DNA of 64,000 nucleotides, from contig JABZFM010000024.1 of NCBI GenBank assembly GCA_014237465.1, forward strand, positions 1 to 64,000, read 5' to 3'. Numbering within the stretch: position 1 is the first letter of the stretch; each line of letters starts with the position of its first letter. This DNA is from Desulfobacteraceae bacterium. Lineage in GTDB: Bacteria > Desulfobacterota > Desulfobacteria > Desulfobacterales > Desulfosalsimonadaceae. The notes under the pieces are model-generated. The model did no database searches and was not told the DNA's origin. It saw only the letters and a list, made by a program, of their open reading frames with translations. The position numbers were made by a program, and so were the translations under genes. Below are positions 5,353 through 62,212 of the stretch, piece after piece.

Positions 5353-5437
5353 AAACACAGAGATGCTTTGTTTTTTTAATTATAACAAAGTCTCATAGGG
5401 AGTAGGGACAAACCATATTTCCAAAGTGGTGAATAAA

Positions 5438-8764: not shown

Positions 8765-8775
8765 ATCTCCCCCAA

Positions 8776-8823
8776 CCCCTCTTTATAAAGAGGGGAGCTT
8801 AAAGTCCCCCTTTTTAAAGGGGG
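8776..8823. repeat. Twin palindromes downstream of cyclase copy 3
   Basis: CCCCTCTTTATAAAGAGGGG at 8776-8795 is followed by a CCCCCTTT/AAAGGGGG hairpin at 8806-8823. Both are perfect short palindromes just after the stop codon, and may act as transcription or mRNA-end signals. Similar GGGGA-rich repeats are dispersed in many bacterial genomes. Confidence 0.7.
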
Positions 8824-8942
8824 ATTTAGGGGAATTTTTGAGTGCAACTTAACTAAAATGGATAACCACATAAATTAATATTTGGTTTAGATTATTAGCG
8901 ACTATTTGAACTGCAACATCAAAAAATGGAGGGAATGCTCTT

Positions 8943-9797
8943 ATGCCCGGTCTGCCGATTGATACACCCATAACAGAAATTATCACGAAAAGGCGATCCT
9001 GGAGAACCTATAACGGAAAACCTGTTGAAAACGAAAAAAAGGATCAGATTTTAAGTTTTATTTCCACATTGGATAAGCCGCCGTTTGGCTCTGAAGCAAG
9101 GTTTCAGATGGTTGACCTGGATCTGAAAGGAACGGGTAAAGTATCAGGCACTTATGGAGTTATCAAAGGGGCGGAAACATTTATTGCAACTATTGTTAAA
9201 AATAGCCCTATGGATATGGAAGATGTGGGATTTTTATTTGAAAAGATCATTCTTTTTGCCACAGCCATCGGACTTGACACCTGCTGGATGGGCGCAAGCT
9301 TCAGCACGCCTCTTTTTTCCGAAAAGATGGAGCTAAAACCCGAGGAAACAATCCCGGTCGTCAGCCCTATCGGATATCGGGCCGGCAGACGAAGCATCAC
9401 GGATACTGTTTTTCATATAAGCGCAGGATCAAAAAAGCGCAAGCCATGGCCGGATCTTTTCTTTGACAGCAACTTTGATTCACCGTTGGAAAAAAATGAT
9501 GCCGGAGAACTTGAAGTGCCGTTTGAGATGGTCAGGCTTGCACCCTCTGCGGTTAACAAGCAACCCTGGCGACTCATCCTCGATGGTAAGAAGGTCCATT
9601 TTTTTCTAAAACGAACCATGGGGTTTGAAAGCATGTTTAAGATGGATTTGCAGCGCATTGATATGGGGATTGCCATGTGCCATTTTGAACTTGCGGCCAA
9701 TGAAATGGGTGTTGAGGGTGGATGGAAGGTTGAAGAGCCGAATATTGAATCATTGCCGGATGGAATTGAATATGCTGTTAGCTGGGAATGTGATTGA
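8943..9797 (+). CDS. Nitroreductase-fold protein (TM1586-type)
   Basis: A 284-residue protein that begins with a nitroreductase-like helix (ITEIITKRRSWRTYNGKPV, residues 11-29). It continues with two related FMN-fold halves as in the putative TM1586 nitroreductase family; the second half has the typical VRLAPSAVNKQPWRLIL (~198-214). Members probably bind FMN and use NAD(P)H; the substrate is unknown. A GGAGG ribosome site lies ~9 nt before the ATG. It stands alone between two cyclase paralogs with its own 5' region, so it is probably not part of their signalling function. Confidence 0.82.
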   Translation: MPGLPIDTPITEIITKRRSWRTYNGKPVENEKKDQILSFISTLDKPPFGSEARFQMVDLDLKGTGKVSGTYGVIKGAETFIATIVKNSPMDMEDVGFLFEKIILFATAIGLDTCWMGASFSTPLFSEKMELKPEETIPVVSPIGYRAGRRSITDTVFHISAGSKKRKPWPDLFFDSNFDSPLEKNDAGELEVPFEMVRLAPSAVNKQPWRLILDGKKVHFFLKRTMGFESMFKMDLQRIDMGIAMCHFELAANEMGVEGGWKVEEPNIESLPDGIEYAVSWECD

Positions 9798-9935
9798 CTA
9801 TAATCCTTTAAAGAGTCAATACCCCCATTAAAGAAAATCATCGAAAATATAATCGAAAATGAGAACCTGTAAAAAGGTAACTATTTGATTAACGCGGATT
9901 TTTAAGGTGATAGCAGAAAGATAGAAATACTTTTA

Positions 9936-10076
9936 TTTGCATATCCGGTTCGGTTAAGTTGGTTAGAAAAATTGCACATCGCTGAAAGGTAGGGTGCATT
10001 CTATGCACCATATTCAGTGAAGTTTAAGCTTTCCCCCGGTGCGTAAAACGCACCCTACTTGAGCGAAGTGGATAAC
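9936..10076. repeat. 141-bp dispersed repeat, copy A (truncates cyclase copy 4)
   Basis: By eye this stretch is identical over 141 bases to 26518-26658. Inside are inverted arms GTAGGGTGC (9989-9997) and GCACCCTAC (10050-10058), plus nested GGTGC/GCACC motifs, so it can fold into a hairpin. At its right edge the sequence passes straight into the interior of a cyclase gene. The element's last bases (TAA at 10073-10075) put a stop in that frame. It encodes no protein and looks like a non-autonomous, MITE-like element. Confidence 0.9.
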
Positions 10077-10186
10077 GCGCTCATCCTCTTCAGACACCAG
10101 AACAAGCCTCTCCCATAGATTTCACCCAACCCCACTCCTACACCCCCAAGTTTCTCGCTGATAAAATCCTCACTACTCGAAGTGCC

Positions 10187-13100
10187 ATGGAGGGCGAACG
10201 GAAGCGGGTGACGGTTCTTTTTGCTGATGTTGCCGGTTTTACTTCGATGTCTGAAAAACTCGATCCCGAAGAAGTCCACCAGATCATGGACGGGTGTTTT
10301 AAAATATTGATGGATGAGATTCACAATCATCAGGGGACAATAAATCAATTTACCGGGGACGGGGTGATGGCGTTATTCGGCGCACCGGTTGCTATAGAAA
10401 ACCATGCCCAGAATGCTTGTCAAGCTGCGCTATCCATACAAAATGCTATTAAAAATTACAGTGAAGAATTGAAGAATAAGTATGGCTTTAAATTTAAAAT
10501 GCGAATCGGTCTTAACTCAGGCCCTGTAATCGTTGGATCTATCGGTGATGATCTGCGTATGGACTATACCGCTATCGGGGATACCACCAACTTGGCTGCC
10601 CGGATGGAAAGCATGGCACAGCCGGGTACCATTCTTGTTTCGCCCATCACTTACAAGCGGGTCAGCCAGTTTTTTAAATTTGAACCGCTCGGCAAGGTGA
10701 CGGTGAAAGGAAAAGAAGAGCCGTTAGATGTATACGAGTTAATTAAAGCCAAAGCTGACAGGCCACATCTGGGCTTTGAGCGGCAGATTTATTCTGAAAT
10801 GGTGGGTCGGGACAATGACCTCAACAAATTAGAACTTCAAGTAAATAAAGCCGTTGATGGGGAAGGATCTATCGTTAATGTAATCGGCGAGGCGGGCATC
10901 GGAAAATCGAGGCTGATTGCTGAGTTAAAAAATCGGGATGTGGTGAGTCGTGTTACCTTTCTGGAAGGAAGGGCCATCTCCATCGGCAGAAATCTAAGCT
11001 TCCACCCTATCATCAACCTCCTGAAGCACTGGGCCCGTATTAAAAAAGACGATAATTCATCAACAGCACTCGGCAAACTGGAAACAGCAATCAGAAGTGT
11101 TTGCCCGGAAGATACAAATGAAATTTTTCCGTTTGTGGCAACCCTTATGGGTATGAAGCTATCCGGCCGACACGCAGAGAGGGTGAAAGGTATTGAGGGG
11201 GAGGCGCTTGAAAAACTGATTTTTAAAAATATGCGGGATCTTTTGGTCAAGTCAACTGAGCTGACGCCTTTGGTTGTTGTGATTGAGGACCTGCACTGGG
11301 CAGATACCAGCTCCATCGAACTCATGGAATCCCTGTTCCGCCTTGCAGAAACCCAACGGATTGTTTTTATCAACGTATTTAGACCCAATCACCCGGAAAC
11401 CGGCGACAAAATAATCGAATCCATCAAAGAAAAAATGCCTGTCTATTATGTTGAAATCAGACTGCAACCGCTAAACGAACAAATGAGCGAAACGCTTATT
11501 AACAATATGCTCAATATCAGAGGCCTGCAACATTCGGTGATTGATCAGATCATCCAGCGTTCCGGCGGGAATCCTTTTTTCATCGAGGAAGTGGTGCGGT
11601 CGTTTATTGATGAGGGGGCGGTGGTCAAGACGAACGGAGCGTTTACGGTCACTGAAAAAATAGAGAAAATGGTGATTCCGCACACCATTAACGATGTACT
11701 GATAGCAAGGATTGACCGGCTGGATGAAAATACCCGGGATCTTATCAAAATCGCATCGGTCATCGGGAGGAGTTTTTTTTACCGGATTCTCACCGAAGTG
11801 GCAAACACGATTGATGGGATCGACAACCGGCTGTCTTATTTAAAACAGATTGAACTCATCAGGGAACGGCAACGGATGGAGGAACTGGAATATCTGTTCA
11901 AGCATGCCCTTGCCCAGGAAGCCGCTTATGAATCGATTTTGCACCAGAAACGAAAAGATCTGCATCTGCAAGTGGCCCAATCGATTGAAAAGGTCTTTGA
12001 TGAACGGTTGCATGAGTTTTATGGGATGCTGGCATTGCACTACATGAAGGCCGAAAATTATGAAAAAGCGGAAAAATATCTTGTCAAGGCCGGAGAAGAA
12101 GCACTAAAAGCCTCGGCATCCAGCGAAGCCTTAAATTACTATCAGGAAGGGTTAAAATTGTATCTCCAATTGAGTAAAGATACCGCAGACCCTGAAAAAC
12201 TGGCCATGTTTGAAAAAAATATCGCCATCGCCCTTTATAACAAATGCCGATGGGAAGAGGCAGTAGAGCATATTGATAAAGTTTTTAAATATTGGAATAT
12301 GCCTGTTTCTCCGAATCGGCTTCTCGCAATAATTAAGTTTATCAAAAATATCATTTTTATTATGGCGAGTCTTGATCGTGTATCCAGAAGAGCAAGGAAA
12401 ATACCCAGTCAAAGGGACAACGAGGTTTTTGAATTATTATATATGCGTGCCACAGCATTGGTTTATTTCGATAATGTCGAACTTTTTTTTCAAACTATAA
12501 GTGGATTTAATAAGATTTGCCAATTTGATTGGACCAAATCTCCAGCTGCAACCCAGGGCTTTTTAGGTACAGCTGCTATATTTTCTTTTGCTGGATTATT
12601 TTTTAAGATAGCTTACAAAATTCTGGATATCGGCAAAAGTAGAATGGATCAAGAAAATATTCAAAATCTTCTTACAGTCACTATGACGTATGATTATACA
12701 AACACTTTTTCTGGAAATTGGGAAAAGATAGCACCTATTAAAGAAACGCTTCTAAATGAAGCTCTAAAAAAAGGGGATTTGTTCAATGCAATAAATTATT
12801 TTGACTGCAAAACATTTGTATCAAACGATATGGGAGATTTTGATAACACCCAACGCCTGATTGATCAAATGCTCGAAATCGCAGTTGCTTATGATTATAG
12901 TCTTGCTAATGTTTATGCCGATATGCAAAAAACATACTTGTTGCTAAAAAAAGGCCAACTATCTGAAGCACTAAGTAAAGCTGAACAGGGTATAATATTT
13001 TCTGGCCGTCACAGTATGGGGCTTAACCAGCAAATGTTCTTTAGCTGGAGAGCTCAAGCACAAATTTTGTTAAATAATCTTGATGGAGCGAAAGAATCTT

Positions 13101-13603
13101 TACTTAGGGCTAAGGAAATAATCGATCATCATAAATATTTAGCTCCAAATTTCATTACACCCTATTTGATAGCTCAATTCATGATGCATATTTATTTATT
13201 AAAACAGGCCATCGTTTCTAATAAAAGCAATAATCTATCAAAGCTTAAAAACAAAGCTCGTCATAGTGGAAAAAAAGCTTTAAATATTTTAAAAAGGAAT
13301 GCGATAGACTGGACCCAAGGCCTCAGGTTGATGGGTGAATATTATTGGCTCATCGACAAACAGAATAAGGCATTAAAATGGTGGGATAAGGCAATCAAAA
13401 AGGGGGAAGCATTAGGTGCCCGGCCGGATTTGTCCCGAACCTATTCTGAAGTCGGCAAAAGCCTGCTGGAACCCGACAGCAAGTACAAAGAATTAAACGG
13501 CATCACTGCGGAAGAATACCTTGAAAAAGCACGGACCCTGTTTGAAGATATGAATCTTCAGTGGGATCTGGATGAGTTGGATAAGGTGATGGCGGGAAGA
13601 TAA
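10187..13603 (+). CDS. Class III cyclase / AAA ATPase / TPR protein, 5'-truncated (copy 4)
   Basis: A 1138-residue paralog of copy 5 that lacks the zinc ribbon. Codons for PIDFTQPHSYTPKFLADKI upstream of the ATG are still readable from 10076, but that frame is blocked by the TAA at the edge of the 141-bp repeat. The first usable ATG falls at the start of the cyclase domain (MEGERKRVTVLFAD) and has no Shine-Dalgarno. Catalytic features survive: D14, D58, N135, R139, and Walker A GEAGIGKS ~234-241. The first ~650 and last ~90 residues closely match copy 5, while the TPR middle is much more divergent. The gene may be expressed at low level or not at all; the absence of other lesions suggests a recent event or continued function. 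Confidence 0.85.
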   Translation: MEGERKRVTVLFADVAGFTSMSEKLDPEEVHQIMDGCFKILMDEIHNHQGTINQFTGDGVMALFGAPVAIENHAQNACQAALSIQNAIKNYSEELKNKYGFKFKMRIGLNSGPVIVGSIGDDLRMDYTAIGDTTNLAARMESMAQPGTILVSPITYKRVSQFFKFEPLGKVTVKGKEEPLDVYELIKAKADRPHLGFERQIYSEMVGRDNDLNKLELQVNKAVDGEGSIVNVIGEAGIGKSRLIAELKNRDVVSRVTFLEGRAISIGRNLSFHPIINLLKHWARIKKDDNSSTALGKLETAIRSVCPEDTNEIFPFVATLMGMKLSGRHAERVKGIEGEALEKLIFKNMRDLLVKSTELTPLVVVIEDLHWADTSSIELMESLFRLAETQRIVFINVFRPNHPETGDKIIESIKEKMPVYYVEIRLQPLNEQMSETLINNMLNIRGLQHSVIDQIIQRSGGNPFFIEEVVRSFIDEGAVVKTNGAFTVTEKIEKMVIPHTINDVLIARIDRLDENTRDLIKIASVIGRSFFYRILTEVANTIDGIDNRLSYLKQIELIRERQRMEELEYLFKHALAQEAAYESILHQKRKDLHLQVAQSIEKVFDERLHEFYGMLALHYMKAENYEKAEKYLVKAGEEALKASASSEALNYYQEGLKLYLQLSKDTADPEKLAMFEKNIAIALYNKCRWEEAVEHIDKVFKYWNMPVSPNRLLAIIKFIKNIIFIMASLDRVSRRARKIPSQRDNEVFELLYMRATALVYFDNVELFFQTISGFNKICQFDWTKSPAATQGFLGTAAIFSFAGLFFKIAYKILDIGKSRMDQENIQNLLTVTMTYDYTNTFSGNWEKIAPIKETLLNEALKKGDLFNAINYFDCKTFVSNDMGDFDNTQRLIDQMLEIAVAYDYSLANVYADMQKTYLLLKKGQLSEALSKAEQGIIFSGRHSMGLNQQMFFSWRAQAQILLNNLDGAKESLLRAKEIIDHHKYLAPNFITPYLIAQFMMHIYLLKQAIVSNKSNNLSKLKNKARHSGKKALNILKRNAIDWTQGLRLMGEYYWLIDKQNKALKWWDKAIKKGEALGARPDLSRTYSEVGKSLLEPDSKYKELNGITAEEYLEKARTLFEDMNLQWDLDELDKVMAGR

Positions 13604-13623
13604 AAAAATTTTCTTGCCAAGTA

Positions 13624-13666
13624 AAATTAACCCTGCTATTTTTCAATTAAAATATAAATTAACCCT
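13624..13666 (+). promoter_or_regulatory. Two direct repeats with 32-bp spacing upstream of DUF4143 ATPase
   Basis: AAATTAACCCT occurs at 13624-13634 and 13656-13666, exactly 32 bp apart. The second ends 18 nt before the ATG at 13685. Spacing and distance to the start codon match the array in front of the other DUF4143 gene, whose core sequence differs. This suggests an operator used by the gene's own product or a partner. Confidence 0.7.
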
Positions 13667-13684
13667 TTAAATGTTCATTAGCTC

Positions 13685-14989
13685 ATGGATCAAATCACAT
13701 TACAGGTGTTGCTGGGGCATAACCCATGGCTGCTTGATAAGAATGCGTGGCAGGATATCATAACCAGCCATCTTCCGGATCGGTATATTCCGCGGCACCT
13801 TGTTTCACCGCTTGAATGTATCAATAACAAAATTAATCTCATCATCGGCCCCAGACAGTCCGGCAAATCGACACTTATATGGCATTTTCTGGCAAACTTG
13901 TCACAGCCGTTTCTTTTGATTAATTGTGAAGAGCCATCCTGCCGGGAGCTGTGTAAATCCCCTGCACTATTTTTAACAAGTATTAAGGATATCGCAAGCC
14001 CGCTCCCCGGACTATTTTTTGAAGAGATTCAACATCTACCTGAAGCCGGTCTGTTTTTAAAGGGACTGGTGGATTTGAAACCCAATGTGCCGATTTTTGT
14101 TACCGGTTCCGCAAGTTATCACTTAAGAAGCAAAACACGGGAATCCCTTGCGGGCAGAGCTGTCCGGCATCACCTCCTTCCGTTCGGCATGACTGAGCTT
14201 TGGCCCGAACAACTGCCGCCTTTAATTTCAGAGGAAAAAGCAGCAACAAACTGGAAAGAGCTATTGATATGGGGTGGGTATCCGGAAGTGGTTTTAAATC
14301 AGAATAAGCAGGCAATTCTTGCACAGTTAGTTGAAGCCTTTGTATTACGAGATGCCTCGGATATCTACAGGATCAAACGACCGGATGCATTCAGGAAACT
14401 TCTCTCCCTTGCTGCATCGCAAATCGGGAACCTTGTCAATTTTTCCAATTGGGCTGAAAACGCCGGCATAAGTGTCAATACGGTCATTGAATATGTCAAC
14501 CTGATGGCGGAAAGTCATCTGGTGAAACTGGTTCCGCCTTTTGTGGGCGGCAAACGTGCTGAAGTGACATCAACCCCAAAAATCTTTTTCCTTGATAACG
14601 GGTTGCGCAATCTGTTGTTTGGCGGGTTTGCTTCTGAAAATCAACGGGCGGATTTTGGCGCTTTGACCGAAAATCTTGTTTTTACGGAATTGTGCAAAAA
14701 TACAAATCCCCTGCTGGATACGATACTGTATTGGCGGTCCAGTTCAGGAGCGGAAGTTGATTTTGTTATTCGGACAGCCGGGCAGCTGATTGCTGTTGAA
14801 GTGAAGGCCGGGGCATTAAAACGGCCCAAAGTGAGCCGATCGCTGAGGAGTTTTATCCAGGCTTACCGGCCCGACAAGGTATTTGTCTTTAACGAATCGC
14901 TTGTTGATTCTATAAAAATTGAAGGAATCGATGTTATATTTGACCGGCTGATTCACATACCTTCCAGGATAGGAAAAAATCAGCCTTAA
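13685..14989 (+). CDS. AAA ATPase with C-terminal DUF4143 domain (ATPase A)
   Basis: A 434-residue ATPase with Walker A GPRQSGKS at residues 55-62 and Walker B GLFFEEIQHL at ~108-117. The C-terminal DUF4143 part carries SSGAEVDFVI and, further on, VEVKAG. That D...EVK pattern is the one seen in PD-(D/E)XK nuclease-like folds. The AAA_14/DUF4143 family is very common in bacteria and archaea, but its cellular role is not established. The gene follows cyclase copy 4, with a pair of 32-bp-spaced repeats directly before its start. A second, distant homolog lies at 18772-20076 on the other strand. A defence, selfish-element or regulatory role are all possible. Confidence 0.9.
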   Translation: MDQITLQVLLGHNPWLLDKNAWQDIITSHLPDRYIPRHLVSPLECINNKINLIIGPRQSGKSTLIWHFLANLSQPFLLINCEEPSCRELCKSPALFLTSIKDIASPLPGLFFEEIQHLPEAGLFLKGLVDLKPNVPIFVTGSASYHLRSKTRESLAGRAVRHHLLPFGMTELWPEQLPPLISEEKAATNWKELLIWGGYPEVVLNQNKQAILAQLVEAFVLRDASDIYRIKRPDAFRKLLSLAASQIGNLVNFSNWAENAGISVNTVIEYVNLMAESHLVKLVPPFVGGKRAEVTSTPKIFFLDNGLRNLLFGGFASENQRADFGALTENLVFTELCKNTNPLLDTILYWRSSSGAEVDFVIRTAGQLIAVEVKAGALKRPKVSRSLRSFIQAYRPDKVFVFNESLVDSIKIEGIDVIFDRLIHIPSRIGKNQP

Positions 14990-14998
14990 AATTCAAGC

Positions 14999-15026
14999 GG
15001 CAGAACAACAAATTCGATGTTCTGCC
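14999..15026 (+). terminator. Hairpin after ATPase A
   Basis: GGCAGAAC (14999-15006) and GTTCTGCC (15019-15026) form a perfect 8-bp stem about 10 nt after the stop codon. There is no T tract, so it may be a weak terminator or only an mRNA-end hairpin. Confidence 0.45.
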
Positions 15027-15061
15027 TCATAGATACAATTACTTATTCAACCTGTCATTTA

Positions 15062-15135
15062 GCGGGCGGGGATGAACCCCGCCCCTACAAAAAATCCTGC
15101 TAACCCTTGTAGGGGCGGGCTTTATGCCCGCCCGG
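15062..15135. repeat. GC-rich palindromic repeat
   Basis: The arms are built from GGGCGGGG...CCCCGCCCCTACA and its inverse TGTAGGGGCGGGC...GCCCGCCC, giving a long cruciform-like structure between ATPase A and cyclase copy 5. It is a typical dispersed intergenic repeat and has no coding potential. Confidence 0.75.
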
Positions 15136-15197
15136 AAAAAGCTTGCGAATTTGCGACCATCTTTATGAAATCGTGTATTTAGTCGTGAGGATTCAAA

Positions 15198-18100
15198 ATG
15201 AAATGTCCAAAATGCCAACGTGAAAATCCTGAAGATGCAAGTTTTTGTAATGGATGCGGCCTTAATCTTCAAAATCCAGAATCCTCCCCTTCCATTGATT
15301 TCACCCAACCCCACTCCTATACCCCCAAGTTTCTTGCCGATAAGATTCTCACTACCCGAAGTGCCATGGAGGGTGAACGGAAGCGGGTCACCGTGCTATT
15401 TGCGGATGTGGCTGGATTTACTTCTATGTCTGAAAAACTCGATCCTGAACAGGTCCACCAGATCATGGACGGGTGCTTTAAAATCCTGATGGATGAAATT
15501 CACAATCACCAGGGAACGATTAATCAGTTTACCGGTGACGGGGTGATGGCTCTTTTTGGTGCGCCGGTTGCCATTGAAAATCATGCACAGAATGCCTGCC
15601 AGGCAGCGCTATCCATGCAAAGCGCTATTAAAAGATACAGCGAAAATTTGAAGACAAAGTTCGGGTTGGATTTTAAAATGCGGATTGGTCTCAACTCCGG
15701 CCCGGTGATCGTGGGTTCTATCGGGGATGATCTGCGGATGGACTATACTGCCATCGGCGATACCACAAATTTAGCCGCCCGAATGGAAAGCATGGCAAAG
15801 CCGGGCACAGTATTGGTTTCTCCAATCACTTACAAACGGGTTAGCCAGCAATTCGATTTTAAGCCTTTGGGTGAGGCCAAGGTTAAAGGTAAAGAAAAAC
15901 CTTTAGATGTATATGAGCTGATTAAAGCCAAGGTTGACAGACCACGTCTGGGTCTGGAGCGACAGATTTATTCTGAAATGGTCGGTCGGGATAACGATCT
16001 CAGCAAACTTGAACTTCAAGTCATGAAAGCTGCTAACGGGGAAGGATCCATTGTCAACGTGATCGGTGAAGCGGGCATTGGTAAATCAAGGCTTATTGCC
16101 GAGCTAAAGAACCGCGAAGTAGTGAAACGCACAACCCTTCTTGAAGGCAGGGCCATCTCCATCGGCAGAAATTTAAGCTTTCACCCCATTATAAACCTTT
16201 TTAAGCACTGGGCCCGTATTAAAGAAGACGATAATTCATCAACAGCACTCAGTAAACTGGAAACAGCCATCAGAAGTGTATGCCCGGAAGATACAAATGA
16301 AATTTTCCCTTTTGTGGCAACCCTGATGGGCATGAAGCTTTCCGGCAGGCACGCCGAAAGGGTTAAAGGCATTGAGGGGGAGGCGCTTGAAAAACTGATT
16401 TTTAAAAATATGCGGGATTTTTTAATTAAATCAACTGACCTGACACCTCTGATAATTGTGATAGAGGACCTTCACTGGGCGGATACCAGTTCCATTGAGC
16501 TTCTGGAAGCCCTGTCCAGCCTCGCAGAAACCCAGCGGATTCTTTTTATCAATGTATTCCGGCCCAATCACCTGGAAACAGGCGATAGAATCATAGAAAC
16601 CATCAAAGAAAAACTTCCTGTCTATTATGTTGAAATCAACTTGCAACCACTAAACGAACAAATGAGTGAAATGCTCATTAACAATATGCTCAATATAAGG
16701 GGTCTCCAGCATGCAATGGTTGATCAGATCATTCAGCGTTCCGGCGGCAATCCTTTTTTTATCGAGGAAGTGGTTCGGTCGTTTATTGATGAAGGCGCGG
16801 TGGTCAAAACAAATGGTGAGTTTGAAGTCACTGAAAAGATAGAGAAAATGATTATCCCGCATACCATCAATGATGTGCTCATGGCAAGGATTGACCGGCT
16901 TGATGAGAATACAAGAGATCTGGTCAAAGTCGCCTCGGTGATCGGGCGGAGCTTTTTTTACCGGATTCTTACACAAGTGGCAAACACGGTTGATGGGATC
17001 GACAACCGGCTGTCTTATTTAAAACAGATTGAACTCATTCGTGAGCGGCAGCGGATGGAGGAGCTGGAATATCTTTTCAAGCACGCCCTTGCACAGGAAG
17101 CGGCCTATGAGTCGATTTTGCTTCAGAAACGAAAAGATCTGCATCTGCAAGTGGCCCGATCAATCGAAAAGGTATTTGATGAACGGCTTCATGAATTTTA
17201 CGGGATGCTGGCACTTCATTATATAAAAGGCGAAGATTATGAAAAAGCAGAACATTATCTGGTAAAAGCCGGTGAAGAAGCCTTGCGTTCTTCTGCGTCC
17301 AGCGAAGCGTTGAACTATTATCAGGAAGGATTAAAGCTTTATTTGCAGTTTAATAAAGATACTGCAGACCCGGAAAAACTGGCCATATTTGAAAAAAATA
17401 TCGCCATCGCCCTATACAACAAGTCTCGATGGGTTGAGGCCGTGGAACACACAGATAAAGTTTTCGGGCACTGGAATATACCTACTTCCCCTAATAGGAT
17501 ACTCCTTCTGATAAAGTCTGCGAAAAATATAATCTCTATTATGACAGGCCTGTATCGTCTATTCGAAAAATCAAAACCTTCCCCCAGCAAAAGAGATAGC
17601 GAGTCATCAGATTTATTTTATAAAAAAGCTACGGCATTAATATATGTCGATAGTCTCAAATTTTTTTTTGATACTATCAGCAACTTTAACAATGCTTACA
17701 AGGTTGATATCGATAAGTCACAAGAAACGATCAACTTTTTTATAGGTACAGCCGGTGTGATTTCTGCAAGTGGTTTATCATTTAAATTAGCTTATAAAAT
17801 GTTAGAAATCGGCAAATCAAAAATGGATATGAATAACGTTAAAATTCTCATGTCGTATAACATGATATTTTTGATAGCGAATATTTTCTCGGGGAATTGG
17901 GACAGGATTGGACGTTTTAAAAAAACACTTGTAGATGACGCTTTTAAAAAAGGCGAAATGTTTGATGCCCTGAATTATATATTTTGGTTTCACTCTTTGA
18001 AAATCGAAACAGGTGATTTTTCAGATACTGACTTATGGATTAAAAAAATGAATGAAATTGCAAGCTCATATAATTATTATCTGGGGTATGTATACGCCAG

Positions 18101-18782
18101 CTTTTTCAAAATAGTGTCGCTAATAACGAGGAAAATTCAATTCTCTGAAGCTTGTGCGGAAGCTGACCATGTCATAACATTATGCAGCCAATATGATTTT
18201 AAACCGCATCACATGCTTGGTTTTTGCTGGAAAGCTGAAGCACTTGTTCTTTTAAATGATATTGATGGAGCTAAAAGATATATGTATCAAGGGGAAAAAA
18301 TAATTGATCAAGACAAGTTAACGCCCCCTTATATCATGGCAACCTATCTTATAGCTCAGTTCATTTTAGATATTACAATATTAAAGAGAGCCTTGACCTC
18401 TAAGGCTGACCCTGATCTATCAAATCTTAAAAAAAAAGCATGTAAAAGTGGAAAAGCCGCATTAAGGAAATTGAAAAATTATGCGCTAAACCGAACAAAA
18501 ACTCTTCGATTGATGGGCGAATATTACTGGCTCGCCGGCAAACAGAATAAAGCGCTCAAATGGTGGGATAAAGCCATCAAAAAAGGAGAAGAATTAGGCG
18601 CTCGACCGGATTTATCCCGTACCTATTTTGAAGTCGGCAAAAGCCTGCTGGAGCCCGGCAGCAAAACCAAAGAATTAAACGGCATCACCGCAGAAGAATA
18701 CCTTAAAAAGGCCCGGACCCTGTTTGAAGAGATGGACCTTCAGTGGGATCTGGATGAGTTGGATAAGGTGGTTAATCAATAA
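15198..18782 (+). CDS. Zinc-ribbon / class III nucleotide cyclase / AAA ATPase / TPR protein (copy 5)
   Basis: A complete 1194-residue paralog. It has one zinc ribbon (C3, C6, C17, C20), then the cyclase (~60-245) with metal aspartates D70 and D114. N191/R195 are the transition-state residues; Thr184 sits where ADCY-type enzymes have the purine-binding Asp, and Gln110 where they have Lys. Walker A is GEAGIGKS at 290-297, and a Walker B-like VIEDLHWAD follows. TPR repeats fill the rest. A GAGGA ribosome site precedes the ATG. Compared with copy 4, the catalytic head and the last ~90 residues are nearly the same while the TPR middle has drifted. The 3' end overlaps the convergent ATPase gene by 11 bp. 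Confidence 0.94.
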   Translation: MKCPKCQRENPEDASFCNGCGLNLQNPESSPSIDFTQPHSYTPKFLADKILTTRSAMEGERKRVTVLFADVAGFTSMSEKLDPEQVHQIMDGCFKILMDEIHNHQGTINQFTGDGVMALFGAPVAIENHAQNACQAALSMQSAIKRYSENLKTKFGLDFKMRIGLNSGPVIVGSIGDDLRMDYTAIGDTTNLAARMESMAKPGTVLVSPITYKRVSQQFDFKPLGEAKVKGKEKPLDVYELIKAKVDRPRLGLERQIYSEMVGRDNDLSKLELQVMKAANGEGSIVNVIGEAGIGKSRLIAELKNREVVKRTTLLEGRAISIGRNLSFHPIINLFKHWARIKEDDNSSTALSKLETAIRSVCPEDTNEIFPFVATLMGMKLSGRHAERVKGIEGEALEKLIFKNMRDFLIKSTDLTPLIIVIEDLHWADTSSIELLEALSSLAETQRILFINVFRPNHLETGDRIIETIKEKLPVYYVEINLQPLNEQMSEMLINNMLNIRGLQHAMVDQIIQRSGGNPFFIEEVVRSFIDEGAVVKTNGEFEVTEKIEKMIIPHTINDVLMARIDRLDENTRDLVKVASVIGRSFFYRILTQVANTVDGIDNRLSYLKQIELIRERQRMEELEYLFKHALAQEAAYESILLQKRKDLHLQVARSIEKVFDERLHEFYGMLALHYIKGEDYEKAEHYLVKAGEEALRSSASSEALNYYQEGLKLYLQFNKDTADPEKLAIFEKNIAIALYNKSRWVEAVEHTDKVFGHWNIPTSPNRILLLIKSAKNIISIMTGLYRLFEKSKPSPSKRDSESSDLFYKKATALIYVDSLKFFFDTISNFNNAYKVDIDKSQETINFFIGTAGVISASGLSFKLAYKMLEIGKSKMDMNNVKILMSYNMIFLIANIFSGNWDRIGRFKKTLVDDAFKKGEMFDALNYIFWFHSLKIETGDFSDTDLWIKKMNEIASSYNYYLGYVYASFFKIVSLITRKIQFSEACAEADHVITLCSQYDFKPHHMLGFCWKAEALVLLNDIDGAKRYMYQGEKIIDQDKLTPPYIMATYLIAQFILDITILKRALTSKADPDLSNLKKKACKSGKAALRKLKNYALNRTKTLRLMGEYYWLAGKQNKALKWWDKAIKKGEELGARPDLSRTYFEVGKSLLEPGSKTKELNGITAEEYLKKARTLFEEMDLQWDLDELDKVVNQ

Positions 18783-20834: not shown

Positions 20835-20923
20835 TCCAATGATATTGATCAACTCACGATGTATTCTTAAAAAGCTTTGTCACGCCGCAGCGCGCCGCTG
20901 TATCAAAAAATAACTTTTATAAA

Positions 20924-20991
20924 GTAGGCCGGGTTTCTTACCCGGCGATTGACATAGCATTTTCATTTGTCGGGAAAGAATCCCGACCTAC
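20924..20991. repeat. CCGGG palindromic repeat, copy 1 of 2
   Basis: GTAGGCCGGGTTTCTTACCCGG is followed by GTCGGGA..TCCCGACCTAC, two hairpins inside one larger inverted repeat. A close copy lies at 29186-29250, and similarity extends a few bases upstream in both. It separates peptide 2 from the convergent regulator gene. Confidence 0.8.
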
Positions 20992-25464: not shown

Positions 25465-25671
25465 TTAAAGTAAAAATTTTGATTTATAAACCCTGCGCTC
25501 CAGCATGCGCTTTTTTTGCGTGACGCAGGCCATACAGGAACAACCGCTGGAAAGTGGATGTTTTCCCAGTTTTTCAGATAAAATAATGGCGTCTTCGATC
25601 ATTTCAACAATTTGTTTTAAAGCCTTGTCAGCTTTTAGTTTATTGGCGTTAATTTTGTCTATATTTTCCAA
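25465..25671 (-). CDS. Small protein overlapping the nucleotidyltransferase gene
   Basis: A 68-residue protein with a helical N-terminal half and a GCSCMAC cysteine cluster at ~43-49, suggesting metal binding. It starts with TTG inside the last codons of the upstream nucleotidyltransferase gene (13-nt overlap), with an AGGA ribosome site, so translation is probably coupled. I do not recognise the family. The pairing recalls two-gene toxin-antitoxin-like units with AbiEii-type nucleotidyltransferases, but that is inference only. Confidence 0.6.
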   Translation of the reverse strand: MENIDKINANKLKADKALKQIVEMIEDAIILSEKLGKHPLSSGCSCMACVTQKKRMLERRVYKSKFLL

Positions 25672-26258
25672 TTTAAAGATTCCTGTTCCCCTGCCTTTTT
25701 AAATACATCCTTGACCAATTGAACCTGTTTAAACCTTTCAGCAAATTGAAGCACCCTTTCTTTTTCAATCCTGTTAAACGGCTTTGGGATCATTTGTTTA
25801 GTATTCATCCGGAGTAAAGAAATGATGTCCGCGGCATCCCTGTGTGTTCTATCCGGATTATTGGCAATCGCCATTATTTTTAAAATAATATAGTCGCTGG
25901 GTTGTATGACAGGATGTTTCCCTGTTAACTCATTTGCAACTTCAACGCTGTTTTGTATCATCGATTTTCCATCATCTGTTTGCACGAACAAAAAATCAAC
26001 ATTCCAGAGATCTTTCTGATCGGAATCAAATTGCGCAAAAGAATCCGTATCCTGGTAGCAATTATATCCCAACTGTGTCATGACATCAGATATATTTTTG
26101 TTGAATTTTCTTTCTGAAATCAGGTCTATATCAGCAGTATATCGTGGAAAGCCATAATAACCGAGGGCAAACGCGCCGATGATGGCATAAGGAATTGAGC
26201 GGTTTCGGAGACGACCGGTGACATTTTCTATAATTTCTTTAAATCTGGAAGAAGGCAT
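25659..26258 (-). CDS. Nucleotidyltransferase-fold protein (AbiEii-like)
   Basis: A 199-residue protein with a nucleotidyltransferase core: AIIGAFALGYYGFPRYTADI near residues 24-43, where DIDL provides the metal-binding aspartates, and a third acidic site in WNVDFLF (~86-92). Similar proteins include AbiEii-type toxins and other proteins of mixed function. The ATG at 26258 was chosen over a TTG six bases upstream. It overlaps and precedes the 68-residue gene, forming a two-gene unit isolated from its neighbours. Confidence 0.75.
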   Translation of the reverse strand: MPSSRFKEIIENVTGRLRNRSIPYAIIGAFALGYYGFPRYTADIDLISERKFNKNISDVMTQLGYNCYQDTDSFAQFDSDQKDLWNVDFLFVQTDDGKSMIQNSVEVANELTGKHPVIQPSDYIILKIMAIANNPDRTHRDAADIISLLRMNTKQMIPKPFNRIEKERVLQFAERFKQVQLVKDVFKKAGEQESLNWKI

Positions 26259-26517
26259 GCGCAAAATCTCACATATTTAATTGAATTCAATGGATAATCA
26301 TTCTACCATTCATAATTGTATCTTGCAAACATTAAACAACATTAAATTCATACCTGCACAAAAACCATGATTTAAAATTGTCATCGCCAACGAGTTTTTC
26401 CTTCAAATTGAATATTTTTCACTTTAAAGGAAATCCCGCTTATTTTACAGGAAGATGGAGCGGTTTACTTGTAGAATCGATAAGGGGGAAAGCTTCGACT
26501 TTATCCTATTAATTTTT

Positions 26518-26658
26518 TTTGCATATCCGGTTCGGTTAAGTTGGTTAGAAAAATTGCACATCGCTGAAAGGTAGGGTGCATTCTATGCACCATATTCAGT
26601 GAAGTTTAAGCTTTCCCCCGGTGCGTAAAACGCACCCTACTTGAGCGAAGTGGATAAC
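26518..26658. repeat. 141-bp dispersed repeat, copy B (supplies the end of the acetyltransferase gene)
   Basis: By eye it is identical to copy A at 9936-10076. On the minus strand the acetyltransferase frame runs into it and stops there, so its last ~17 residues (from GYPLRSSRVRF) are coded by the repeat. Flanks outside the 141 bp do not match copy A. Confidence 0.9.
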
Positions 26659-27073
26659 CAGTAAACCCGAGGCGTTTGTAAAAACTCAGCTGTCTGAATT
26701 CGATAAAAGATTCCACATAAAGTCGTTTTTTCTCTTTTCGGGCCATTGCTTTGGCATGAGAAACAAGCTGGATACCAAGTCCGTTTCTTCTGAATTCCGG
26801 ATGCACGCTTAACGTACCGACAGCCAGCGACTGGTAAGGGTATTGATTTTCCGGATTCCGGTGTTCCATGATCATGGCAGCCATAGTGATTGCCCCATCT
26901 TTTATAATAAAACAACGCTTTTCCGTGATCGCGGCCCTTATGTATGGATCCGTATTCCAGTAAAAATCTTTGACACCCATATTTTTAACTGGATTTTTTA
27001 ACTGGATTTTCAACAGGGTATTTAATTCCCGGACACCCGTTAAATCATTTAACCGGGCGCATTCAATATCCAT
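26606..27073 (-). CDS. GNAT-family N-acetyltransferase with a repeat-derived C-terminus
   Basis: A 155-residue acetyl-CoA-dependent transferase. The acetyl-CoA site is RRNGLGIQL (~100-108) after the beta strand LAVGTLSVHPEF, and the motif-B end is SFYKRLGF. The ATG overlaps the stop of the upstream flavoenzyme gene (TAATG), so it is the last gene of the catabolic operon. The final residues after GFTG come from the 141-bp repeat, which probably replaced the original C-terminus. The acetyl acceptor is unknown. Confidence 0.85.
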   Translation of the reverse strand: MDIECARLNDLTGVRELNTLLKIQLKNPVKNMGVKDFYWNTDPYIRAAITEKRCFIIKDGAITMAAMIMEHRNPENQYPYQSLAVGTLSVHPEFRRNGLGIQLVSHAKAMARKEKKRLYVESFIEFRQLSFYKRLGFTGYPLRSSRVRFTHRGKA

Positions 27074-29073: not shown

Positions 29074-29185
29074 AATCCTATTCCTTTATATGAAACAAAA
29101 ATTCTTACGTATTTATTGATGAATTCGTAAAAAAAAACAATTGATGCCGCCTTGCGACACTCTATCATTAAATAATTTCTACAAA

Positions 29186-29250
29186 GTAGGCCGGGTTTCT
29201 TACCCGGCAATTGACATGTTCCATTTGTCGGGATTGGAATCCCGACCTAC
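29186..29250. repeat. CCGGG palindromic repeat, copy 2 of 2
   Basis: The same double hairpin as 20924-20991 (GTAGGCCGGGTTTCTTACCCGG, then GTCGGGATTGGAATCCCGAC). Preceding bases (AATAA.TT.TA.AAAGTAGG) also match. It lies in the gap between the flavoenzyme and cleavage-enzyme genes. Confidence 0.8.
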
Positions 29251-34345: not shown

Positions 34346-34467
34346 GATGGCAAAGATAAATGTTCAAACTCAAGGCGCACAAATTCTGAGGAATGAGGCG
34401 TAGCGGGCTACTCCGCAGTGACGAAGAATTTGTGCAACGCAGAGTTTGGGCATTTAGAGAAGCCATC
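34346..34467. repeat. CAAGGC/AACGCAG hairpin element, copy 3
   Basis: GATGGC (34346) and GCCATC (34462-34467) bound the element. Inside are CAAACT-CAAGGC-GCACAAATTCT and its pairing partner AGAATTTGTGC-AACGCAG-AGTTTG. The right end shares bases with the stop codon of the enoyl-CoA hydratase gene. Confidence 0.85.
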
Positions 34468-35245
34468 ATTTGCCTTTAAAAACCGGCGCCCTCTTCTCAA
34501 TAAACGCTGTGATCCCTTCCACGGCATCTTCGGTTGAGGCAACTTCGGAAAGTTTTTCGGAAAGAAAATCCAGTGCCTCTTCAAAGCCCAAGTCCTGCAT
34601 GGCATAAAACGATTGTTTCCCGATCTTCATTCCAATGGGACTTTTGGCGGCCAGGCTTTCAAGAATTTTATTCACTGTTTCATCCAGTTTTTCCGGTGCA
34701 ACCGACCGGGTGATCAGCCCCATTTCCTGCGCTTGGGCAGCTCCCAGTTTTTCTCCGAGAAGCACCATCTCCATGGCTTTTTTCTTTAACACATTTCTGA
34801 AAATCAAGGCCCCGATCATCATGGGAAAAAGTCCGACATTGACTTCCGGGGTGCCGAATTTGGCATCATTGCGCGCAATCACAATATCGCAGGCCAGCAT
34901 GAAACCGGTTCCGCCGGCCAGGCAGTATCCATTGATCCTTGCCACTGTGGGCTTTGAATAACCTGCCAGGCGCTTTAACAGATCGGCATAATTTCGAAAT
35001 GCCTGATTTTTGCCCTCTCCTTCCGCACTCATTGCCCCACCAAGGTCCGCACCGGAACAAAAGGCCTTTTCACCGGCACCTGTGACACAGATAACCCGCA
35101 CGGCATCATCTTTCTCAGCCTGGTCCAGATATTGTCTAAACAGGTCAACCGCTTCCGCGCTGATGGAATTCCGGTATTTCTCCCGGTTAATTGTTATATG
35201 CGCAATATGGTCTTTTACGCTGTACAGCAGATCCTTTTCTGTCAT
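34466..35245 (-). CDS. Enoyl-CoA hydratase/isomerase family protein
   Basis: A 259-residue crotonase-fold enzyme. The oxyanion-hole segments are FCSGADLGGAM (~62-72) and NGYCLAGGTGFMLACD (~104-119), with NVGLFPMM following. Expected to hydrate an alpha,beta-unsaturated acyl-CoA, here plausibly the product of the adjacent carboxylase (methyl- or isohexenyl-glutaconyl-CoA, as for LiuC/AtuE). The start overlaps the biotin-carrier stop (ATGA), so the two are coupled. Glu at the usual catalytic position is not clear (GTPEVNVGLFP), so substrate and exact reaction remain open. Confidence 0.9.
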   Translation of the reverse strand: MTEKDLLYSVKDHIAHITINREKYRNSISAEAVDLFRQYLDQAEKDDAVRVICVTGAGEKAFCSGADLGGAMSAEGEGKNQAFRNYADLLKRLAGYSKPTVARINGYCLAGGTGFMLACDIVIARNDAKFGTPEVNVGLFPMMIGALIFRNVLKKKAMEMVLLGEKLGAAQAQEMGLITRSVAPEKLDETVNKILESLAAKSPIGMKIGKQSFYAMQDLGFEEALDFLSEKLSEVASTEDAVEGITAFIEKRAPVFKGK

Positions 35246-37335: not shown

Positions 37336-37472
37336 GATGACAAAAAAAAATGTTTCACCAACCTTATAAAACTGGCAAGGCGCACAGATTCTGAGGAATG
37401 AGGCGTAGTAAGCTGCTCCGCAGTGACGAAGAATTTGTGCAACACAGAATTTGAACATTTTACGAAGCCATC
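37336..37472. repeat. CAAGGC/AACGCAG hairpin element, copy 4
   Basis: The inner arms GCACAGATTCT and AGAATTTGTGC are bracketed by CAAGGC and AACACAG, with GATGAC at the left end and GCCATC at the right. It lies between the biotin-carboxylase and carboxyltransferase genes and ends 2 bp from the latter's stop. Confidence 0.82.
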
Positions 37473-37474
37473 TT

Positions 37475-39091
37475 TTACATGCGGAAGACGCCGAAACCAT
37501 ACTCATCATCCCTGATCGGGGCGTTGAGCGACGCTGATATGGCAAGCCCCAAAATATCTCTTGTCTTTGCCGGATCGATAATGCCGTCATCCCATAGCTG
37601 GGATGTCGCATAATAAGCGTTGCCTTCCTTTTGTGCGTTTTCAATGACCGGTCCCTTGATAAACTCAACCTCCTCTTTTGTTAGCGGCGCCTGGCCAAGT
37701 CTTGCCCGCTGGTTGTTGGTGATGGTCTCAAGAACACCGGCCGCCTGTTCGCCGCCCATGACGCCGATCTGGGCATTGGGCCACATCCACATGAATCTCG
37801 GTGAATAAGCCCTGCCGCACATGGCGTAGTTTCCGGCCCCGAAAGACGCGCCCACCACAACGGTAAACTTGGGAACTGACGCAGTTGAGACGGCATTCAC
37901 CATTTTATGCCCATCTTTGGTAATCCCGCCGCGTTCATACTGGCTGCCAACGATAAATCCGTTGATATTCTGGAGGAACAAAAGCGGAATTTTTCGCTTG
38001 TCGCACAGCTGAATAAACTGGGTGGCTTTTTTGGCACTGTCTGAAAATAAAATCCCGTTGTTGGCCAAAATGCCCACCGGATACCCGTGAATATGGGCCC
38101 ACCCGGTCACCAGGGTCGAACCAAACATTTCCTTGAATTCCAAAAACTTGCTCCCATCCACAATGCGGGCAATCACTTCCCGGCAGTCATAGGGTTTAGA
38201 CAGATCCGGGCTCACGATCCCATACAATTGCATTGGATCATAAAGGGGTGGTTCCGGTTCCGCCATGGTGAGCTTTGATTTTTCGGTTGCCGGCAGATTT
38301 TTGACAATACTCCGGACAATCTGGATGGCATGGGGGTCATCTTCCGCATAATAATCAGACACTCCGGAATCACTACAATGAAGTTCCGGCCCGCCCAACT
38401 CATTGGCGGTGACTTCTTCTCCGGTAGCTGCCTTGACAAGGGGAGGGCCGCCCAAAAAAATAGCACCGTGTCCTTTTACATGAACAATATCATCACACAT
38501 GGCAGCCCCATACGCACCACCGGCCGTACAGAGGCCCATGACTGCAGCGATCTGGGGAATCCCCATCTTAGAGATCATGGCCTGATTATAAAATAACCGG
38601 CCGCCACCATTAATATCCGGAAACATTTCCGACTGCAGGGGCAGATAACCACCGGCAGAGTCAATCAGAGAAACACTGGGCAGCCGGTTTTCCATAACAA
38701 TGGCCTGACCGCGCAAGCCTTTTTTAGCACTCATGGGATAGGCAGCCCCACCCTTGATAGTGGCGTCATTTATGCCGATCATGCATTCACGGCCTTCAAT
38801 CACCCCGATACCCATTACCAAGCCAGCCTTATGGATTTTGCCGTCATACATACCGCGGGCCGCCAGGGGCGCTATTTCAAGAAACGGTGTATTTTTATCC
38901 AGAAGCAGTTCCAGCTTCTTTTTTGCCGGAATTTTTTCGGATTCTTTCTGCCGGTCCAGGGCCTTTTGCGACCGCTGATTCATGGCAATGTCAAGCTCTT
39001 TGTTCAGGTCTTCAACAAGGGCTGACATATCCTTAAAATTTTTTTGATACTCCTCGGAATTGATATCTATCTTACTTTCAATGACTTCCAT
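37475..39091 (-). CDS. Acyl-CoA carboxylase carboxyltransferase subunit (MccB/AtuC-like)
   Basis: A 538-residue crotonase-fold carboxyltransferase of the methylcrotonyl-/geranyl-CoA carboxylase beta type. It has the acyl-CoA half (INDATIKGGAAYPMS, LIDSAGGYLP) and the biotin half (VVGASFGAGNYAMCGRAYSP ~420-440). The start at 39091 follows GAGGAA. Single-chain beta subunits with this SAGGYLP signature accept beta-methyl-branched enoyl-CoAs in characterised relatives. I cannot tell methylcrotonyl- from geranyl-CoA by eye. Confidence 0.92.
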   Translation of the reverse strand: MEVIESKIDINSEEYQKNFKDMSALVEDLNKELDIAMNQRSQKALDRQKESEKIPAKKKLELLLDKNTPFLEIAPLAARGMYDGKIHKAGLVMGIGVIEGRECMIGINDATIKGGAAYPMSAKKGLRGQAIVMENRLPSVSLIDSAGGYLPLQSEMFPDINGGGRLFYNQAMISKMGIPQIAAVMGLCTAGGAYGAAMCDDIVHVKGHGAIFLGGPPLVKAATGEEVTANELGGPELHCSDSGVSDYYAEDDPHAIQIVRSIVKNLPATEKSKLTMAEPEPPLYDPMQLYGIVSPDLSKPYDCREVIARIVDGSKFLEFKEMFGSTLVTGWAHIHGYPVGILANNGILFSDSAKKATQFIQLCDKRKIPLLFLQNINGFIVGSQYERGGITKDGHKMVNAVSTASVPKFTVVVGASFGAGNYAMCGRAYSPRFMWMWPNAQIGVMGGEQAAGVLETITNNQRARLGQAPLTKEEVEFIKGPVIENAQKEGNAYYATSQLWDDGIIDPAKTRDILGLAISASLNAPIRDDEYGFGVFRM

Positions 39092-40236: not shown

Positions 40237-40737
40237 ATGAAAATATCTTTTTTTATTAAATTAACAGTTATATTTCTGACCATTTGCCTGGTGCCTGCGT
40301 CCGGATTTGGTGAAGACACCAATATTATTTTTAAACATGACAAGACCGGGGTGGCTGATGAAGTCAATAAAATGAAAGACTTTGATTTTGAGCTTCAGGA
40401 GCGGGAAAGAGACCGAATGAAACAGTGGAACATTGAAGACTCCACTGATGCCATGAATGTGGGTGATGTGTATTATGAAAAGGGTGAAACTGAAGATGCA
40501 ATTTTATTCTATCAAATTGCCATCAAAATCGATCCGTCCAACGAAAACGCCCACGAAAAATACATCACTGCCAGACAGATTGAAAAAGCGGAAGCCAGCA
40601 CACACTACCATCAGGCCATGGAGTATTATCGGAAAGGGATGAAGGAAAAAGCAATTGATGAGTTAATCGCTGAAATTAAAGAAAACCCGGACAATGAAGA
40701 GGCCCGCGTTAAGCTTAACGAGATTGAGAGTCAATGA
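40237..40737 (+). CDS. Exported TPR protein
   Basis: A 166-residue protein starting MKISFFIKLTVIFLTICLVP, a clear signal peptide with a probable cleavage near residue 25 (ASGFG). A charged segment follows (FDFELQERERDRMKQW), then two to three TPR units (AMNVGDVYYEKGETEDAILF; later STHYHQAMEYYRKGMKEKAI). AGGAGG lies 7 nt before this ATG, which I prefer to an in-frame ATG at 40213. Probably periplasmic and involved in protein-protein contacts; partner unknown. Its TGA stop is part of the hairpin element that follows. Confidence 0.85.
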   Translation: MKISFFIKLTVIFLTICLVPASGFGEDTNIIFKHDKTGVADEVNKMKDFDFELQERERDRMKQWNIEDSTDAMNVGDVYYEKGETEDAILFYQIAIKIDPSNENAHEKYITARQIEKAEASTHYHQAMEYYRKGMKEKAIDELIAEIKENPDNEEARVKLNEIESQ

Positions 40738-40874
40738 TGGCTTCGTAAAAAGTCCAACTTCTGCGTTGCGCTGCATCCTTCGTTTCTTCATGGTACGATA
40801 AGCACAAATCATCACTCAGGATTTGCGCGCCTTGCCAATTGTATATGAATGGTGAAGCTTTTTTCTTTGCCATC
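40736..40874. repeat. CAAGGC/AACGCAG hairpin element, copy 5 (reverse orientation)
   Basis: GATGGC overlaps the TGA stop of the TPR gene and GCCATC ends at 40874. CTGCGTT (40761-40767) and GCCTTG (40829-40834) are the reverse complements of the conserved core words. It separates convergent genes. Confidence 0.8.
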
Positions 40875-40916
40875 CGAATCTGACTTTTTACGAGAGAGTC
40901 AATAAAATTCGTTTTT

Positions 40917-61851: not shown

Positions 61852-61935
61852 AGATTGATCCTTTCGTAATGGCTAAAACAAAAAAATAATACCGGATTAA
61901 TAAGCCATGAAACCTGCCAAAACAAGAATAAATTT

Positions 61936-62074
61936 GATGGCTTCAGAAAAAGTCCAAATTCTGCGTTGCACTGCATTCTTCGTCACTGCGGAGTAGGCTG
62001 GCTACGCCTCATTCCTCATAATTTGTGCGCCTTGCCAATTTTATGAGAATGGTGGAACTTTTTGATTTGCCATC
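61936..62074. repeat. CAAGGC/AACGCAG hairpin element, copy 7 (reverse orientation)
   Basis: GATGGC (61936-61941) and GCCATC (62069-62074) bound AAAAAGTCCAAATT-CTGCGTT and GCGCCTTG-CCAATTTT...AACTTTTT. Its inner part (GAGTAGGCTGGCTACGCCTCATTC) resembles copies 3 and 4 in inverted orientation. The rest of 61852-62212 shows nothing. Confidence 0.85.
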
Positions 62075-62212
62075 GAAATCTAATACCGGTTCATCAAGTT
62101 TATTAAGATATTCACATCCGCTCCTAAAATCCGTTTGTGACTTGACCTGCCGGCAGGTAACACTTATTTTAATTTAATGAACTTTCTCATTCTTTAAACT
62201 TGGAATTTCAAT

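Follow-up and report, generated by a model that had tools for sequence, protein, structure and literature searches.

An IS1595-type MITE and the replacement of a GNAT acetyltransferase C-terminus in a Desulfobacteraceae bacterium

The window analysed here, a stretch of 64,000 nucleotides from a Desulfobacteraceae bacterium, contains a gene for a GNAT acetyltransferase whose 3' end lies inside a short repeat, and the question raised by this locus is where the C-terminus of the protein came from and how the repeat reached it. The window is contig C39:1-64000 of a 5.09 Mb genome (G000) assembled in 70 contigs with a stated completeness of 99.96%. A sequence-only reading had described the repeat as a 141 bp non-autonomous element at 26518-26658, with inverted GTAGGGTGC arms and no transposase in sight, which had spread recently and had reshaped two genes. 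As a whole, that interpretation is partly supported by the results below.

Extent, ends and copies of the repeat

The coordinates of the features are collected in Table 1. The two window copies lie 16,582 bp apart, are 99% identical over 149 nt and share an identical core of 138 bp. The repeat is real, but at the acetyltransferase gene it is 144 bp in length and reaches 26661; the figure of 141 bp fits the other copy, 9936-10076, in which the terminal CAG is missing. In the orientation of the window the element starts with TTTGCATATCCGGTTCG and finishes with CGAAGTGGATAACCAG, and its ends are imperfect inverted repeats with the shared core TATCCNNTTCGNTYAAGT. The inverted GTAGGGTGC arms are two internal palindromes and are ruled out as the element ends, since conserved sequence and target duplications lie beyond them. 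The palindrome pattern gave 54 matches in the genome compared with none for the reversed control, and single-stranded DNA folding of 26510-26658 gave a z-score of -6.1 against 200 shuffles, which places the repeat far above chance.

A 201 nt query located 27 places of at least 89 bp in the genome, together with two short matches, and the genome-wide count proposed earlier as a check therefore stands at 27 full or partial copies. There are 13 full copies in subfamily 1 (96.4-100% identical) and ten in subfamily 2 (97.8-100% identical), with an identity of 76-79% between the subfamilies. The close identity of the 13 subfamily 1 copies bears out the recent spread of a non-autonomous element. Among 98 genomes, element matches (E <= 0.001) were obtained in nine, eight of them of the genus of the window (its own included) and one, G019, of the same family.

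With the ends fixed at TTTGC and CCAG, a 9 bp target-site duplication with at most one mismatch was found at eight of the 23 two-ended copies, compared with one of 506 swapped flank pairs. When 9-10 bp are allowed with the same tolerance the number is ten of 23; this test also gave three cross-matches among 24 left x 27 right flanks, one of which (L013/L011) arises because two overlapping loci show one and the same element. An eleventh duplication, ATAAAATAT, is found at L014, a copy with an internal deletion, giving 11 of 24 two-ended copies. The duplicated target sequences are A/T-rich. Exact ends and target duplications had likewise been named as points to check: the ends are now set, and the duplications are present at these 11 copies and at neither window copy.

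The length of 144/142 bp, the multiple copies, the core TATCCNNTTCGNTYAAGT at both ends, the lack of a transposase gene and the near-constant duplication length of 9-10 bp are those of a MITE, yet 13 of the 23 copies, both window copies included, have no duplication. The element resembles the bacterial MITEs RUP, NEMIS, Nezha and ERIC, which are named in excerpts of PMC3733652 (70-300 bp, terminal inverted repeats, noncoding, multicopy and with strong secondary structure), but differs from them in its ends and transposase family and in having interiors that vary between unrelated pairs of REP type.

Table 1. Features of the two element copies in the window and of the adjoining genes.
Feature	Position	Strand	Details
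IS1595-type MITE, copy at the GNAT gene	26518..26661	+	144 bp; both terminal sequences intact; no target-site duplication
Left terminal inverted repeat TTTGCATATCCGGTTCGGTTAAGT	26518..26541	+	
Internal GTAG-tagged palindrome GTAGGGTGCATTCTATGCACC	26571..26591	+	REP-like
Internal GTAG-tagged palindrome GTAGGGTGCGTTTTACGCACC	26620..26640	-	REP-like; opposed to GTAGGGTGCATTCTATGCACC
Right terminal inverted repeat CTGGTTATCCACTTCGCTCAAGT	26639..26661	-	
GNAT acetyltransferase ORF	26606..27073	-	155 aa; Pfam PF13508 42.2 bits, PF00583 37.4 bits
Second window copy	9936..10076	+	141 bp; right end without terminal CAG; no target-site duplication
Nucleotidyl cyclase/AAA ORF	10187..13603	+	Without the N-terminal zinc ribbon of paralogs 5426-8764 and 15198-18782

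The acetyltransferase tail and the copies without duplications

The C-terminus of the GNAT ORF reads ...FYKRLGFTGYPLRSSRVRFTHRGKA, followed by the stop codon. Residues 1-137 are native, T138 is a hybrid, and GYPLRSSRVRFTHRGKA and the stop codon come from the element, which contributes the last 17 codons and two bases of the one hybrid codon; past the native part the protein continues TGYPLRSSRVRFTHRGKA. This reading of the ORF, together with the different tail of the orthologs, confirms the claim that the element forms the last ~17 codons of the gene. Orthologs in distant genomes with the same C-terminal sequence had been named as evidence that would speak against it. The orthologs from the same-genus genomes G005, G002 and G010 have a different, conserved C-terminus, ending in KEYHG(K/N)PYHVLFI(D/N)P, and these three are the independent ones, since the genes of two named MAG records (L244 and L245) apparently duplicate those of G010 and G002. 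The gene was found in four of the 60 genomes searched, its own included, so that the comparison stays within the genus.

The GNAT gene and the upstream oxidoreductase are common to the sister species, and the homology to these relatives breaks at the edge of the element. The element ends at 26661; the window DNA aligns down to 26662 with G005 (L115; 84%, 1906 columns) and with G010 (L114; 77%), and down to 26663 with a C-terminal piece of the G002 gene (L118; 89% over 66 columns). With L116, another contig of G002 (85%, 1843 columns), the alignment breaks off before this, where that contig ends. A search of the own genome with a degenerate pattern of the native tail, allowing three mismatches at most, gave no match, and ten other genomes of the genus contain nothing that matches the DNA on the left side of the GNAT copy (25660-26517). 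With no duplication, a missing native tail and an unmatched left flank, the GNAT copy is not a clean insertion. The first two of these features indicate that a one-sided deletion or rearrangement took part, and a deletion and another rearrangement look alike at this site because the left-flank DNA is unmatched in the ten genomes.

Judged from these comparisons, the native GNAT tail has been lost and replaced by a tail derived from the element. This settles the oddity of the protein, whose last 17-18 residues were supplied by a mobile repeat instead of being inherited from its ancestor. The case further suggests that elements of this kind not only insert but also take gene ends along. An AlphaFold model of the element-derived tail (3-row alignment) had a mean pLDDT of 38.7 and was set aside. 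We also note that AGTAAACC occurs at the right junction of the GNAT copy (26660-26667) and, inverted, in its left flank (26462-26469), and that the left flank contains the 12-mer GGGGGAAAGCTT (26484-26495), which is present inside the element on the other strand. These are possibly the trace of an inversion, or could be due to chance.

The right end of the second window copy, without its CAG, stands before a cyclase/AAA gene, and the homology between this ORF and its paralog at 15198 starts about ten bases past the element. Pfam profile comparison indicates that the N-terminal zinc ribbon of the paralogs, which is a double ribbon at 5426 (PF12773, 48.1 bits) and just at the cut-off at 15198 (PF13240, 25 bits), is absent from the ORF. 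The claim that two genes were reshaped by identical copies 16.6 kb apart holds in that both are altered at element edges and the 138 bp core is identical, with the correction that in the second gene it is the cyclase N-terminus that is missing. Three cyclase/AAA paralogs occupy the region 5426-18782 of the window, and a stretch near 1617 is related to them; the element lies just upstream of the middle paralog. Elsewhere in the genome, the subfamily 2 copy L022 (G000:C64:184994-185132) supplies the C-terminal tail CYPFRLSRVRFTHHLKADRL of a TPR protein, using the same element reading frame as in the GNAT gene.

The copies that lack a duplication differ from the others at their ends. Eleven of the 13 deviate by one to three bases from TTTGC or CCAG, in every case at one end only, compared with one of the ten copies with a duplication (L004, one base). 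Four of these 11 departures are single bases, which ordinary mutation could explain; if departures of at least two bases are counted, the numbers are seven of 13 and none of ten. The 10-mer beside the departing end averages 56% A+T in the 11 copies and that beside the other end 90%. Both ends are intact in the remaining two copies without a duplication, L001 (at the GNAT gene) and L002. The coincidence of a missing duplication with one altered end suggests a one-sided rearrangement that accompanied or followed insertion. Excerpts of PMC11708052 discuss adjacent deletions as well as IS movement that is coupled to rearrangement and leaves no duplication.

The reading that we prefer, with a probability of about 0.86, is that an IS1595-type MITE was mobilized in trans, that one-sided loss occurred at about half of its copies and that the GNAT tail was replaced in this way. 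A DDE transposase from a full-length IS1595-type element with the same ends would act in trans on the MITE, which would insert into A/T-rich sites and leave a target duplication of 9-10 bp. At about half of the copies, both window copies included, the duplication would have been lost on one side or never made, with a one-sided deletion or rearrangement falling at, or a few bases from, one element end. At the GNAT gene this event would have fused codon 138 with the right end of the element, which is intact; about 20 native codons are missing from the end of the gene, and 17 residues and the stop codon come from the element. We infer the mobilization in trans and the order of these events, and also that the loss of the GNAT tail was a deletion. 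The copy at the GNAT gene has both ends intact, which counts against this reading, as do the four single-base departures.

Homologous recombination between copies, instead of one-sided deletion, could also have removed the duplications and joined the GNAT gene to the element. The absence of a duplication from 13 of 23 copies is consistent with this, and such recombination is a known cause of missing duplications (excerpts of PMC11708052). It predicts matching half-sites, but the only cross-matches are L007/L021, L014/L023 and L013/L011; the last of these is one element, and L021 and L014 each carry their own duplication. Neither the GNAT nor the cyclase junction is completed by any copy and the altered ends are left unexplained, so that we consider this course of events improbable. 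An assembly artefact at the GNAT junction might be suspected in an assembly of 70 contigs with 27 copies of the repeat, but is very improbable, as 144 bp is short enough for paired reads to span, the native GNAT tail is nowhere else in an assembly given as 99.96% complete and the loss of three end bases at the cyclase copy is not what a misjoin within a repeat should produce.

A candidate transposase of the IS1595 family

The ends of the MITE match those found beside IS1595-family transposase genes in sister species, namely in G002 (both ends), G003, G005 and G007. One end of the G002 element and one of the G003 element share all 23 bp of the right repeat CTGGTTATCCACTTCGCTCAAGT. The 18 bp core of the left repeat TTTGCATATCCGGTTCGGTTAAGT agrees at 16 of 18 positions with the transposase-3' end of the G002 element, with which the left core of subfamily 2 agrees at all 18. 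The G002 element (L181) is about 1.1 kb in length and has both kinds of MITE end: CTGGTTATCCACTTCGCTCAAGT lies towards the 5' end of the transposase gene and CTGCTTATCCGGTTCGCTCAAGT towards its 3' end, with AAAACTTTT outside each of them and one extra C on the left. The transposase gene of L181 contains internal stop codons. The G003 transposase is intact (317 aa from its ATG; PF12762 121.5 bits, PF12760 40.6 bits, NF033547 211.8 bits with a cut-off of 75), and one end only is well preserved. In G005 and G007 the MITE-type ends lie beside transposase pieces at contig ends; the G007 end has one core mismatch, and the G005 fragment consists of one MITE-type end and then the start of a gene. No single assembled IS thus combines both good ends with an intact transposase, the ends being those of G002 and the gene that of G003.

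The derivation of the MITE from, or its mobilization by, IS1595-type elements is well supported, and the shared ends point to probable mobilization in trans by a transposase of this type. Unlike an IS of this family, the MITE has no transposase gene, is 144 bp in length compared with about 1.1 kb and has an unrelated interior. The usual IS1595 duplication is 8 bp, and the 9-10 bp found here are slightly longer. Excerpts of PMC12561309 give repeats of 7-9 bp for IS1016-type IS1595 elements and A/T-rich 8 bp repeats for ISApl4; the A/T-rich duplications of the MITE are near the former, a likeness to the IS1016 subgroup that concerns the duplications and does not assign the transposase to it. Among the papers retrieved on IS1595/IS1016 and on MITEs, no title announces an IS1595-derived MITE, which does not prove that none has been described.

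No cognate transposase with matching ends was found in the own genome, nor is one strictly required of a MITE. In correction of the earlier statement that no transposase was in sight, the likely transposase can be named: it belongs to the IS1595 family, whose elements in sister species have matching ends. The cognate gene may have been lost from the own genome, may be missing from the 70-contig assembly or may act from elsewhere. The one intact IS1595 gene of this genome, L220 (G000:C39:78822-79760), lies on the same contig, 15 kb past the end of the window; it has 36% identity and is flanked by unrelated ends around CCTATTGACTTAGCTGACCC. An IS1595 fragment is also present on C21. Solitary end motifs on C6, C39, C51 and C66 were inspected for an autonomous copy over 3.5-8 kb each and no IS1595-like ORF was seen, the C51 stretch containing an IS200-type Y1 transposase; those on C15, C57, C61 and C63 look like the ends of other mini-elements.

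Mini-elements with REP-type interiors

Small palindromes of REP type are widespread among bacteria. Each window element carries two opposed GTAG-tagged palindromes, in which it resembles REPINs and the GTAG-tagged REPs described in excerpts of PMC3733652. The repeat might therefore be a pair of REPs (BIME/REPIN), with the palindromes as the mobile unit and a RAYT tyrosine transposase as the mover. The tag and stem-loop form are those described for REPs in the same excerpts, the opposed orientation is that of a REPIN and the own genome has 16 Y1_Tnp matches (15 over the cut-off), two regions of which (L234 and L240) contain other GTAG-tagged palindromes. The repeated unit, however, reaches past the palindromes to the terminal repeats and the 9-10 bp duplications, by which the RAYT reading is largely refuted; IS200-type transposition is not known to make target duplications. 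Of the 16 Y1_Tnp regions, some of which are cut by contig ends, L240 and L241 alone contain the 9-mer GTAGGGTGC and neither was scored as a palindrome, so that RAYT as the mover is unsupported. A hand count in the own genome places 50 of the 54 exact GTAGGGTGC palindromes within the element. We regard this reading as very unlikely: unlike a REP or REPIN, the mobile unit here is larger and bounded by IS1595-type ends and target duplications, and we saw no link to a RAYT.

The core motif without mismatch occurs in 12 of 37 genomes, that is in 12 of the 23 from the family of the window and in none of the 14 from other families of the order; the two sites in G011 could not be paired credibly. A set of 60 paired-end mini-elements (one per locus, from the relatives and the own genome) with 11 interior families was drawn from the sequence surrounding many of the sites, those near contig ends being mostly left out. 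Four candidates in which an end was paired with sequence judged coding or unrelated (L181, L182, L330 and L331) were left out, row L011 of the set represents the neighbouring element L013 in place of its own and a few members are weak (for example L289, L290 and L299). Duplications of 9 bp are present at 24 of 34 mini-elements of the relatives (44 of 1122 swapped pairs) and at 12 of 26 in the own genome (8 of 650).

Opposed palindromes of GTAG or CGTC type were found in 27 of the 60 mini-elements compared with three of 1040 flank windows of equal length, many of the 27 being copies of the family found in the window, to which 25 of the 60 belong. By family representative, three of the 11 families have such tagged pairs (GTAGGGTGC, GTAGGGCAGGCCACCGTGCC and GTCATNCCCGC). 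Inspection adds two families that the strict rule missed, with CGTCATTCCGGGC...CCCGGAAT and TGTCATTGCGAGG...CTCGTAATGAC palindromes, and the other six are without clear tagged pairs. Comparison of the families therefore indicates that elements with the same ends and duplications carry unrelated interiors of REP type, if not in every case, and some carry a pair like the CGTC-tagged REPs.

The IS1595-type system apparently also moves REP pairs. As a kind the MITE is already known, and the REP-carrying swarm is a variant of it. Within this clade the view of the elements as REP vehicles is supported for at least three REP types, and it may hold more generally. In its full form, that one IS1595-type system in a Desulfobacteraceae-like clade repeatedly carries unrelated REP dimers (GTAGGGTGC, GTAGGGCAGGCCACCGTGCC, GTCATNCCCGC and probably two further palindromes of CGTC/TGTC type), which spread as MITE interiors, we put it forward tentatively and at slightly less than even odds. 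If true, a DDE transposase would be a vehicle for REPs, including the CGTC REPs that have no known dedicated transposase and whose spread is stated as an open question in excerpts of PMC3733652. The REP dimers within longer palindromes of A. variabilis and H. neapolitanus are similar in that inverted repeats frame them; the same excerpts describe these as REPs inserted in palindromes, whereas here the frame consists of transposon ends with duplications and a transposase family. If our proposal is true, the REPs inserted in palindromes of other bacteria would be recast as MITEs carrying REPs. The proposal gives REP dimers a concrete vehicle that is open to testing, a unit that has REPs between IS1595-type ends and is bordered by target duplications.

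The GTCATNCCCGC pattern was matched in four of 12 genomes (G000, G001, G004 and G005) and in none of the other eight. Both ends lie nearby (within 260-290 bp, with at most four mismatches) at six of its 29 loci, corresponding to four dimers, which indicates that this REP mostly lives elsewhere; that CGTC REPs are mainly carried by these elements is unsupported. A fifth dimer, L342/L345, has such ends by inspection and failed the fixed criterion. At L356 a GTCATNCCCGC site is enclosed by another inverted pair, CGTAAAAAGTC...GACTTTTTACG, and the same pair encloses a repeat of the window.

This second repeat family is found at 40735-40900 of the window, with related repeats at 61935-62081, 34371-34471 and 37376-37476. 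The copy at 40746-40890 has the ends GATGGCTTCGTAAAAAGTC...GACTTTTTACGAG and GAGAGTCAAT on both sides, and at L111 a GTAGGGTGCATTTTATGCACC palindrome lies inside the same kind of frame. Two further repeat copies, at 20884-20955 and 29146-29217 of the window (83%), carry another GTAG-tagged palindrome, GTAGGCCGGGTTTCTTACCCGGC.
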